Source: Trigonopsis variabilis
Lineage: Eukaryota; Ascomycota; Trigonopsidomycetes; Trigonopsidales; Trigonopsidaceae
Reading direction: 5' to 3'
NCBI GenBank assembly: GCA_003707065.3
Contig: PPXM03000005.1
Span: 476,501-540,500 of the forward strand
Length of the DNA: 64,000 nt
Below, piece by piece: positions 45,757 to 49,738 of the stretch. The number at the start of each line of letters is the position of its first letter. Within the stretch, counting starts at the first letter, position 1. The position numbers were made by a program, and so were the translations under genes. The notes under the pieces were generated by a model. The model searched no databases. It was not told the origin of the DNA and saw only the letters and a list, made by a program, of their open reading frames with translations.

Positions 45757-46889
45757 ATCGTTATTAACTGTGCTAATTATGGCTCGATTAAAGCTGTCTA
45801 CGTGATTTTATAACTCATGAGTGCCTTGTCGCCTCGTTCAATCCGCCTGCCTTTTATGAACGTGCCTTCTAGCCTGCCTCTGCGTCGCCCTTACGTACCA
45901 TCTAGTGAATAGCCATACCTAAACTGCTTTCTTTGCACTTACAGGCTAAGATAGACCTTACACTCTTCTTTTAACTGATACCTCGAGTCGCCTCACGCAG
46001 CCGCCCTTGCAATGATTGTCTGCTCGTCTACTTTAAATCAGTCATTACCGCCTCAATCATTTCTTCTCGGTAATCTTTGTGTATCTTTTTGAAAGTTCCG
46101 TTATTGGTGAGCTTGGTGTGTTGCTGGTTATCTGCCTTTTTATGCCATCCTTCTTAAGTAGTCTTGAGTAAAAAAAGTGCGGTACTCCCTGCGTAGCTTA
46201 CTGTGTGTGCCAAATGATTCTTACTTCTACTGTCGGAGTTTTATCTGTGTTTCTGCATGTTTTTTACAAATGGCCCTTGGAGAAGACATTTCGTCGGTCG
46301 TCTATTATATTTGTCGATAAACTGGAATAAAAAAGATAAGATGATCTCAACCTCCTGGCGAATGTGCAAATCTAGAAGAATTTAAGACACAAGAGCAGAA
46401 CAAATTCATCAGAAGATCTACTCACACAGCAACAAGCATAGAAAGCAGTGTAGCATGTGTCATTAGTCGTGGTAATCCAATTGCTCCTAGAATTCATGCG
46501 AGGCAAGTCTTAAATGCCTAATAGTCACGTGTGAGTATAATCTGAGGCAATGCTGGCCTTTGTTTCAATTACCCGAGATACAATAAAAGATAGGTCATCA
46601 AGGCATTCGGACCTCCTTACATCCCCCTTCAGGAGTATCAGGTGCAGAATAGGAATAAAGAATATCGGCATACAAAAAGACCCTTGGAGTTACATTGTTT
46701 AATAATATTTAAGAAGAAAAATCTGCATCCAGAGCTACTCCTCGCGAAGTAGTGGAAGCATCTCGGCTAGACGTCCCCTTCTCGCATGCTTCGCGAAGCG
46801 TCTGCCGGGCATCATTTCGTGTTTTCTCAAATTCCTGCTTACTAAGCGAGCACAGATCATGTAACATAAAAAGGCTCGTATTTCAATTC
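45757..46889. other. Gene-free stretch between AGC kinase and tRNA-Gly
   Basis: About 1.1 kb without a supportable gene; the kinase promoter should lie at its left end. A perfect 12-bp palindrome GCTTCGCGAAGC occurs at 46788-46799. No further repeats, RNA genes or conserved frames were seen. Confidence 0.4.
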
Positions 46890-46961
46890 GGATGGTTAGT
46901 GTAGTGGCTATCATCCTTGCCTTCCAAGCAAGGGACGGGGGTTCGATTCCCTCACCATTCA
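46890..46961 (+). tRNA. tRNA-Gly (anticodon TCC)
   Basis: A 72-nt cloverleaf can be drawn. The acceptor stem pairs GGATGGT with ACCATTC (one G-U), the D arm is the eukaryotic Gly type, the anticodon stem CTTGC/GCAAG closes the loop CTTCCAA with anticodon TCC (reads GGA), and the T arm is GGGGGTTCGATTCCCTC-like with the invariant TTCGA. There is no intron. A T6 run at 46998-47003, 37 nt downstream, can end RNA polymerase III transcription. It sits upstream of CHL1 on the same strand. Confidence 0.95.
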
Positions 46962-47083
46962 TTGAATTAATAACTAGAGCTTCAATTCGAAGTTAACTTT
47001 TTTGGTTTAACTTTTTTCTTTTTACGCCCCCCAGGACGGGGCAGATTGGCGCCAAATCGACTGAGCGGAGGAGTGGATGGAAG

Positions 47084-49738
47084 ATGGCTGCTCAAGACGA
47101 AGAACAAAGGCGACATTATGGATTTCCATATGAGCCATATGAGAATCAGTTGGCATTTATGAGTACTTTATATGATACTTTGATGAACAAGAAGTTTGGG
47201 GTCTTTGAGTCGCCTACAGGTGAGAATCAAAGTGCGACGAGAAGTTAACAGCAGGAACTGTATGGACAATCGAACAAACGTGGAGCTGACGGCAGGGCAA
47301 ATCTTTGTCGTTGATCTGTGCTGCATTGAGCTGGCTTCGAGACTATGAAGAGAACGAACGGAGGCGAGCAATTGAAGGTGCGCAGAAGGGGGTCTGAGTA
47401 GAAAGATAACCGGTAGCAATCGACGAACAAACGATAGGAGAGCCTGAATGGTTTCGAAAGCAGTGGAGGGAGATAGTGGAGGGAGATCAGAGGAAGATCT
47501 ATGAAGAAATGAAGAAGAGACTGGCACGCTTAAGAGAGAAAAACAAAACTGAAAAAGCGCACGGAGATCAGAGGAGATTATTGAAGCGACGAGTAAGTTT
47601 ACCCAGGGTTCACTAACTGACTAGAGAAACTGGGATCAACTGGAGACGATGCACATACGGAAAGAGATGAAAAGGAGTTTATGTTGGAAGAATGGGTTAG
47701 TGATAGTGAAGAACCAAGCAAAGCCAGCGGGAGAACAGGTATCTCCAGAGAGATAGAAGCAATGTTGAAAAGACTGGATGACCTAGAAGAGAGCAAGGAT
47801 ATGGAGGAAACAGCAGTTGACGAAGATCGACCCAAAGTGTATATCGTGTCAAGGACGCACAGTCAATTGAGCCAGATGGTGCAACAACTGAAACTATTAA
47901 AGGATGAGCCTGTCCATGTGCCCCTGGGGTCTCGAAAACAGTTGTGTATTAATCCGAGAGTCAATCGGATTAAAGACCTGGCCTTGATGAACGAGAGGTG
48001 CCACGATCTTCAGAAAAAGACGGATCCAAACCGATGCATGTATTATATATCCGACCAGACGGAGGATCCTGAGGAAAAGACGAGGTTACACGAGTACCAA
48101 GATGCAGTTCTACAAGATATACAAGATATTGAAGAATGTTACAAGATCGGGAAGCAGCTATCGGTCTGTCCCTATTATGGTCTAAGGACTGTTCTACCTT
48201 TCACTGATATTGTGACTTTACCTTATCCTTTACTGCTACTAAAGAAATCACGCCAGGCTCTCAAGCTTGCGCTCAAGAACTCAGTGATCATAATTGACGA
48301 AGCCCACAATCTACTTGACACATTATCATCGTTGCATTCGATGGATCTATCCTTATCAGACATCCTCGACGCCAAGAAGAAATTGACTATCTATATCAGG
48401 AAGTTCCACTCAAAATTAGCTGGAGGCAACAAAGTTTACTGTCTTCAACTAATTAAATTCCTGACTGCTTTAGAGACCTTTCTTTCCAAAAAAGTCCTCC
48501 CAAAGGGATCTGGTTTCGTCGAAATTCAACCATCTGAATTATTTGCCTCCTCTACAGCCGATAGCATTGATTTGCATAAACTTTTGCATTATTTAGAAAA
48601 ATCTAGATTGGCTCATAAGATCGAATCCTATGCGGACAAGGTGGCGGAGAATGAGGCAAAGTCTGGAAAAGAATCAGCTAACCCAGCACAGACCAAGTAT
48701 TCCAAGCAAGCTGAACATCGAGCTCAACCTGTTTTATTCGACATTGCTTCCTTCATCGAAACGCTGACCCACCCCTCTTCAGAGGGGCAGATCTTTTTCA
48801 CGCTGAACGACTCAAAACAACCTACCGTTCGATATCTGCTTCTGGACGCATCTTATCCTTTCCAGGATTTGATCCGCGAGGCGCGTTGCGTTGTCCTTGC
48901 GGGAGGAACAATGGAACCGATTCAAGAGTATCTCGACCTTTTGGTCCCCACTCTCCCAACCGAGTTAGTCACGGTGTTCACTTGTGGCCACGTCATTCCG
49001 TCTGACCATCTGTTTGGAGCAGTCATTTCGTCCACTCCGACTGACAAAACCTTCACATTCACGTATGACCAGCGCAATAACCATGGAATGATGATAGAAC
49101 TGGGCGAAACAATCGTCCAGCTATGTTCACGGGTACCTAACGGGGTTGTTATCTTCTTTCCTTCTTATCAATTCCTGTCTGTCATCCAGCAACTTTGGTC
49201 TCCTGATATATTTGCCAAGCTTGGACAAATAAAACCTGTCTTTTCCGAATCTCGAGACCGCTCGTCGGAAAAGGTCCTCCAATCTTATACTCATGCAATC
49301 GACTCTAATCCTCGAGGAGCCATCCTCCTGGCAGTGGTTGGAGGAAAGCTATCAGAAGGGATCAATTTCTCGGACAATCTCGCCCGGGCCGTGATTATGG
49401 TCGGCCTTCCCTTTCCTAATATCTCATCTCCGGATCTCATTGCCAAGAGAAAGTATATTGAAGCCAAATCGACAGGCCAATCCAAGGCAGCTAGCGCTCC
49501 TAAGGAGTTTTATGAAAATATCTGCATGCGAGCTGTGAATCAGTCTATAGGACGAGCAATTAGACATCGTGAAGATTATGCAGCCATTATTCTCATCGAT
49601 ACCCGGTACAATCGGGCCTCTATTCGAGCCAAATTACCAGGATGGATTAAATCTGCATTTTCTTCTCCTCTCGACTCGAGTCGTTCTGCTGCTCTTGACG
49701 GTCTACGTAAGTTTTTTGCGGCTAAAGCAGATCAGTGA
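47084..49738 (+). CDS. CHL1: DNA helicase Chl1/DDX11
   Basis: Six exons: 47084-47219, 47255-47259, 47296-47377, 47417-47592 and 47627-49738 code, with a 5-nt second exon, so five coding pieces and four introns of 35, 36, 39 and 34 nt; 836 residues. Exon 1 gives YGFPYEPYENQLAFM and FESPTG; the tiny exon and exon 3 complete the Walker A as [20 protein letters not shown]. Then LEEWVSDS, the Fe-S cysteine set (CINPR, ERCHD, NRCMYY, CPYYGLR), DEAHNLLD, GGKLSEGINFSD and QSIGRAIRHREDYAAI, all XPD/DDX11 family. Chl1 helps set up sister-chromatid cohesion at replication forks and processes unusual DNA structures. ECO1, its genetic partner, is about 9 kb away. Confidence 0.94.
47255..47259 (+). other. 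CHL1: Five-nucleotide micro-exon of CHL1
   Basis: The five bases GAACT are flanked on the left by an intron with donor GTGAGA and end AACAGCAG, and on the right by one with donor GTATGG and end ACGGCAG. Joining exon 1 (ending ACA G), GA ACT, and exon 3 (GGC AAA TCT) gives codons for T-G-T-G-K-S. No single-intron splicing that I tried restores this Walker A motif in frame. Confidence 0.8.

Follow-up and report, generated by a model that had tools for sequence, protein, structure and literature searches.

The CHL1 locus

The window (the whole 64,000-nt stretch of Trigonopsis variabilis DNA that was analysed) belongs to a genome of 11.35 Mb in 15 contigs. Its forward strand carries, at positions 47084-49738, a gene for a CHL1 (DDX11-type) helicase, which we model with five exons, four introns and a spliced product of 836 amino acids (Table 1). 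Motif I of the helicase, the Walker A sequence ESPTGTGK[S/T], is present solely in the spliced model, where the predicted junctions around the second exon read CCTACAG-GAACT-GGCAAATCT. The preliminary description of this locus had placed a five-base exon, GAACT, between introns of 35 and 36 nt with branch-like sites, and all these elements were found where it had put them. With 5 nt and two complete canonical introns at its sides, exon 2 as predicted is a microexon in the usual sense (at most 15 nt, so flanked). Introns 3 and 4 are placed with less certainty than the first two, since they were picked from 48 combinations that keep the frame open, in a region where the protein is variable.

Table 1. 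Predicted exons and introns of CHL1, with positions in the window
Feature	Position	Strand	Length (nt)	Remarks
Exon 1	47084-47219	+	136	Ends GAG TCG CCT ACA G (E S P T and first base of the Gly codon); aligns with CHL1 N-termini
Intron 1	47220-47254	+	35	Donor GTGAGA; branch-like TTAAC at 47245-47249; acceptor CAG
Exon 2 (microexon GAACT)	47255-47259	+	5	Completes the Gly codon (G+GA) and adds the Thr (ACT) of PTGTGKS
Intron 2	47260-47295	+	36	Donor GTATGG; branch-like CTGAC at 47286-47290; acceptor CAG
Exon 3	47296-47377	+	82	Opens with GGC AAA TCT (G K S)
Intron 3	47378-47416	+	39	GTGCGC...ATAAC-CGGTAG; chosen by splice signals
Exon 4	47417-47592	+	176	Part of the spliced model
Intron 4	47593-47626	+	34	GTAAGT...CTAACTGACTAGAG; acceptor less certain
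Exon 5	47627-49738	+	2112	Remainder of the helicase: FeS cysteines, DEAH, motif VI; terminal stop codon

The product aligns over its full length with CHL1-type proteins, the closest of the protein matches listed being that of Lipomyces arxii (44% identity, 99% coverage). Many of the 120 best matches listed are named CHL1 or chromosome transmission fidelity protein 1, and others are just called 'helicase'. Two Pfam domains were recognised, DEAD_2 (PF06733, 157 bits) and Helicase_C_2 (PF13307, 178.9 bits). All residues that are invariant in an alignment of 21 sequences are retained by the spliced protein; they include C240, C258, C270 and C314, which we take to be the ligands of the FeS cluster, D357-H360 (the DEAH box), Q772, R776 and R779. 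Among PDB matches, the solved CHL1 structure (8rev) scores below FANCJ and XPD chains, so the assignment to CHL1, as opposed to XPD, FANCJ or RTEL1, rests on the protein search. Judged by its sequence, the gene is an intact CHL1 helicase gene. In an IQ-TREE phylogeny of 67 sequences (the window protein and 66 hand-picked from the 192 listed relatives described below), the protein forms a long branch on the Saccharomycotina side, with weak support (72) and in a tree without a true outgroup.

No second CHL1 copy was found in the T. variabilis genome. The sole other match reported there is 25-28% identical and corresponds to a 741-amino-acid frame (matches L007 and L009; C11:182771-184627), which we take to encode XPD/Rad3. 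Since this match is a distant, XPD/Rad3-like frame, no spare CHL1 copy devoid of the microexon was found. The 741-amino-acid frame is uninterrupted, unlike that of CHL1, which has four introns close to its 5' end.

Splice solutions that preserve the Walker A motif

All introns of at least 15 nt with GT-AG, GC-AG or AT-AC ends were enumerated, with donors at 47100-47299 and acceptors at 47115-47329, which yielded 273 introns and 5699 ordered pairs. One pair alone, 47220-47254 with 47260-47295, gave ESPTGTGKS. A GxGK[S/T] of any kind was given by 27 pairs and by one single intron, of the AT-AC type, which loses ESPT. Two further pairs retain ESPT: one uses an acceptor at 47251 and the other has an 'intron' of 20 nt (PTGENQTGTGKS). 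The two introns had been described as the only way to keep the motif, which is correct as long as the motif has to be exact and the introns canonical, subject to two reservations. First, the tandem AG at 47251, three bases upstream of the acceptor of intron 1, would introduce one extra alanine (PTAGTGKS). Second, a single removal of 71 nt (47220-47290) with GT and AC ends would produce PTGQGKS; shifting it to any of its six equivalent positions does not yield GT-AG ends.

Both of these alternatives keep the frame, and the CHL1 protein of Phyllosticta capitalensis (P0050) is in fact annotated as PTAGTGKS. However, the AG at 47251 ends only 2 nt past the branch motif, compared with 5-12 nt in 28 sampled introns of the genome, a sample drawn with a pattern that detects distances of 4-12 nt only. 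The AC that closes the 71-nt removal is formed by the last two bases of the branch motif CTGAC, and PTGTGK[S/T] is the form present in 156 of the 192 listed relatives. It is therefore very improbable that the site is spliced in either of these ways.

The likelihood of finding such a solution by chance was estimated by shuffling the 76 bases between the two outer junctions 5000 times with preservation of dinucleotides, the target being the 11-residue Walker A string. When branch sites were required, a two-intron solution arose in none of the 5000 shuffles and a one-intron solution in one; when they were not required, the numbers were 13 and 35 respectively. With the relaxed target ESPTGxGKSLS, two-intron and one-intron solutions arose 1 and 29 times with branch sites, and 84 and 247 times when these were not required. 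The donor of intron 2 (ACT/GTATGG) is weak, and weaker than that of intron 1 (CAG/GTGAGA). Skipping of the microexon, or retention of either intron, leads to a stop at codon 55-63; the frame loss on skipping that the preliminary description had announced was thus borne out, with a stop at codon 63.

Size of introns in the T. variabilis genome

Strong-consensus introns were counted throughout the genome with the pattern GTAAGT-N12..42-CTAAC-N2..10-AG (27-65 nt), the reversed pattern being used as control. There were 401 matches, a count skewed to the strongest signals and of which nearly half may be due to chance, versus 179 in the control. The same consensus with a gap of 43-73 (58-96 nt) gave 62 matches versus 167 in the control, hence no excess; these two comparisons indicate that the introns of this genome are short. 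In a sample of 28 introns (the distinct donors among the first 30 entries of the consensus listing), whose sizes are bounded by the pattern and which may include chance matches, lengths ranged from 29 to 57 nt with a median of 39, and the distance from the branch motif to the end of the acceptor was 5-12 nt. CHL1 introns 1 and 2 are of ordinary size for this genome, and in each of them the branch motif lies 5 nt from the end of the AG.

The fit of the two introns bears on the trivial explanation that the locus contains an assembly error or that the gene is decaying. The bases are those of the assembly, in which an error may occur; on the other hand, both introns are canonical and of the size usual in this genome, and decay is at odds with the rest of the protein being open and retaining the residues that are invariant among relatives. 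We regard error or decay as extremely improbable.

The intron sizes also bear on the proposal, made in the preliminary description, that the microexon acts as an on/off switch. In such a scheme it would be a regulated cassette whose skipping shifts the frame and turns CHL1 off, through a 62-residue product or nonsense-mediated decay. Skipping would pair two canonical sites, the donor at 47220 and the acceptor at 47295, with the stop at codon 63, and a regulated microexon has been described in a fungus, Trichoderma (PMC11121469). However, the length of the microexon is not a multiple of three, whereas a cassette microexon should stay in frame, and the composite intron of 76 nt would fall in the 58-96 nt class, in which matches showed no excess over the control. 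Furthermore, the RNA structure is not distinctive (z = 0.25) and no condition is tied to skipping of the microexon. The switch is unsupported so far, and we consider it improbable.

Long open frames occupy about 38 of the 64 kb of the window (25 non-overlapping stop-to-stop frames of at least 200 amino acids), so four introns gathered at one 5' end, as in CHL1, may be out of the ordinary here. A home-made coding score was tried on introns of the window and was left unused, being too noisy: its strict version returned a single candidate and missed the CHL1 introns, and its loose version returned 72 mixed candidates, intron 4 being the sole CHL1 intron among them.

Faulty CHL1 protein models in other ascomycetes

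The relatives of the window protein were collected as 192 different proteins, the union of the best 120 of 2821 and the best 120 of 3583 matches above threshold. ESPTGTGK[S/T] is carried by 156 of these listed models and missing from 36, some of which are truncated. In comparison, patterns for control motifs were missing from 0-20 of the 192 models (20 for a loose N-terminal pattern). A motif-VI control, missing from 71 of the 192, was set aside; its pattern was too strict, as six inspected sequences have NQSV in place of NQSI.

Two alignment-based tallies located the faults. In the alignment of the 192 proteins, 16 of the 19 insertions of at least two residues between strongly conserved neighbours fall between PTGT and GKS, and none of the other boundaries (150 in all) received more than two. 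Sharp breakpoints between good and bad stretches fall at the microexon junctions in 18 of 36 cases, 13 of them immediately before GKS, 4 immediately after ESPT and 1 between T and G (55 boundaries were eligible). These faults are not all independent, since the insertion and breakpoint tallies share models and Tuberaceae account for 5 of the 16 insertions and 5 of the 13 breakpoints. Nor are they unique to the Walker A motif, since breakpoints also gather between GGKM and SEGIN, the next-largest site with eight. The models broken there are P0036, P0062, P0101, P0108, P0114, P0172, P0173 and P0187, and the site is perhaps that of another awkward intron in CHL1 relatives. The models affected at the Walker A motif belong to several ascomycete groups: Tuber and kin, Geoglossum and kin, Orbilia/Arthrobotrys, lichen fungi, Aureobasidium, Phyllosticta, Coniosporium and Lipomyces.

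We then asked what the faulty models spell. In the skip test, an exon 1 ending in [VI]G[IV][FL]ESPT-G, with a few more residues permitted at the first three places, was read out of frame. Six of the 183 models with a readable landmark contain an eight-codon out-of-frame reading of exon 1 fused directly to GKS (Tuber aestivum, T. magnatum, T. brumale, Choiromyces venosus, Peziza echinospora and Glutinoglossum americanum). The control for this test gave one eight-codon match in 164,690 positions, and this lone match is a Tuber melanosporum model (P0127) with the same junction and four extra residues before GKS. In the six skip models, exon 1 would end after the first base of the Gly codon and the next modelled exon would open at GKS, that is, at the two junctions of the window. 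The frame is lost in these models because the omitted stretch amounts to 2 bases modulo 3, and five bases of the form GNACN would restore PTGTGKS.

Other models are readable as intron retention or as misplaced donors. Those of Coniosporium apollinis (P0184) and Trizodia (P0130) continue past PTGT with a valine (GTN), and their last residue ahead of GKS is Q; in-frame retention of intron 2 would have this effect. Those of Sphaerosporella (P0066) and Aureobasidium (P0105) have GE directly after PT, consistent with retention of the start of intron 1 (donor G/GTGAG). Lipomyces kononenkoae (P0004) has PTGKGKS and Lineolata (P0164) has PTGEGKS, which suggests that five donor bases, GTAAG and GTGAG respectively, were kept in the microexon's place. 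The P. capitalensis model mentioned above fits the use of a tandem acceptor. Altogether 14 of the 36 deviant models could be decoded (the six skips, P0127, P0184, P0130, P0066, P0105, P0004, P0164 and P0050), and the remaining 22 resist decoding, including truncated models, P0009 (PTETGKT), P0010 (PTGGKS) and P0058 (PTGAGKS).

These results could also be read as a microexon that is real but private to the T. variabilis lineage, the faults elsewhere being due to an ordinary single intron in the Walker A motif or to poor assemblies. The motif is intact in 156 of the 192 listed models, some of which may lack introns; the DNA considered is that of one genome only; 22 of the 36 deviant models are not decoded; and a wrong donor inside a GGT codon could explain single models. 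Against this, a single intron in phase 1 or phase 0 should be easy for gene predictors and would not be expected to break the frame, whereas faults occur at both junctions across several groups of ascomycetes, and the precise skip from exon 1 to GKS is present in six models. We consider a lineage-private microexon unlikely; the protein models suggest that it is probably not restricted to the T. variabilis genome.

Additional searches did not extend the set of affected lineages. A protein search for the skip signature (query, residues 1-45 of the Choiromyces model P0126) revealed no new lineages, 5 of 43 matches passing, all of them Tuberaceae and including the query. A search of viral contigs with a profile of the CHL1 alignment gave, among the 600 stretches covered, at least one distant match (23%, L004), which was not used, and no fungal relative; with the C-terminal alignment, none of 24 stretches from genome contigs and 44 from viral contigs could be confirmed as a relative.

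A model for the CHL1 microexon

The best explanation, which we hold to be highly probable, is that T. variabilis has an intact CHL1 gene, the single copy found, whose Walker A motif is put together from three exons, the middle one being an old, constitutive microexon of 5 nt that is spliced by intron definition and often missed in other ascomycetes. It is because model faults cluster at the same two junctions that we favour an old exon, constitutively included and often overlooked by predictors. Each flanking intron, having a donor, a branch site and an acceptor to itself, would be recognised across the intron, and the two would be removed in succession. As both are about 35 nt long, each could be recognised as a unit, and the five bases would not have to be detected as an exon at all. 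The genome encodes an FF-domain protein that is compatible with Prp40 (four FF matches on contig C1 and one on C3), and any role of Prp40, like the kinetics of removal, is conjectural. In other ascomycetes, both introns would occupy the same codon positions, presumably around the same 5-nt exon, and predictors that miss the five bases would leave the deposited protein with a broken Walker A motif. Intron definition was reportedly studied in S. pombe by Romfo in 2000.

The preliminary description had presented the exon as a challenge to both intron- and exon-definition models. This is justified for exon definition; it is not for intron definition, since two very short introns suit that mode, which predominates in short-intron organisms such as yeasts, according to a review (PMC8624252). 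In PMC8378409, most of the microexons tested require PRP-40, the two detected that do not require it have unusually short introns, and intron definition is argued for the PRP-40-independent microexons.

A more far-reaching proposal is that the microexon, with its two introns, was already present in the common ancestor of Pezizomycotina and Saccharomycotina, or of all Ascomycota, and has persisted as a splicing-fidelity check, the supply of this cohesion helicase being made to hinge on accurate intron definition. We judge this unlikely. If it were true, a failure of splicing would deplete CHL1 sooner than most other proteins, and the exon could serve as a natural reporter of intron definition at its size limit. 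Conservation, if real, would mean that the microexon arose before Pezizomycotina and the T. variabilis lineage diverged.

Comparison with known microexons

Microexons, including some in catalytic motifs of plants, are already known; what is new here is the 5-nt case in CHL1. In plants, conserved microexons of 1-15 nt, including the 9-nt mini-exon of invertase, are pervasively missed by annotation (PMC8831610). The CHL1 microexon resembles the invertase mini-exon as a tiny exon in a catalytic motif, and would likewise be long-conserved and widely missed; it differs in that the latter is 9 nt long, in frame and backed by RNA evidence (PMC8831610), whereas that of CHL1 is predicted from DNA. The human MPC1 microexon, of 4 bp, is likewise not a multiple of three and is always included, as that of CHL1 would be; it lies between long introns that carry strong exon-definition signals (PMC9929638), whereas the CHL1 introns are about 35 nt long.

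Fungal microexons are thinly documented (PMC11121469). Like the CHL1 microexon, that of Trichoderma Xlr2, which is regulated (PMC11121469), and the P450 exons of Phanerochaete, down to 6 bp (PMC1184071), are very short exons between short fungal introns; in the passages considered, they neither concern CHL1 nor split a Walker A motif. Stwintrons, including those of Lipomyces, similarly crowd two small U2-type introns at one position, which in fungi are excised in sequence (PMC7138796); in a stwintron, however, a splice signal of one intron is split by the other, whereas CHL1 has two complete introns with five coding bases between them. The CHL1 site was considered as a stwintron and rejected, both introns being complete and five coding bases being kept.

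No report of a CHL1 microexon, or of ascomycete CHL1 models broken by a missed microexon, was found in the open literature searched by title and start of abstract. Its features of note are the small size, the position within the Walker A motif, the short introns at its sides and the apparent conservation. A constitutive 5-nt exon in an invariant ATP-binding loop, apparently common to distant ascomycetes, would allow a clean test, in a natural setting, of how the spliceosome works beyond the size range of exon definition. In fungi such as Tuber, Choiromyces and Peziza, the disrupted catalytic motif of the deposited CHL1 proteins appears to be an artefact.

Sequences upstream of CHL1

A tRNA-Gly (TCC) gene lies at 46890-46961, its end 122 bases upstream of the start codon of CHL1; an Rfam scan of 46000-48000 detected nothing besides this tRNA. 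A dispersed repeat lies at 46675-46803, 87-215 bases before the tRNA-Gly gene, and two diverged copies of it (75 and 82%; L002 and L003) are present on contigs C8 and C10, about 0.2-0.5 kb from a tRNA gene. The repeat is possibly the remains of a mobile element that targets tRNA genes.
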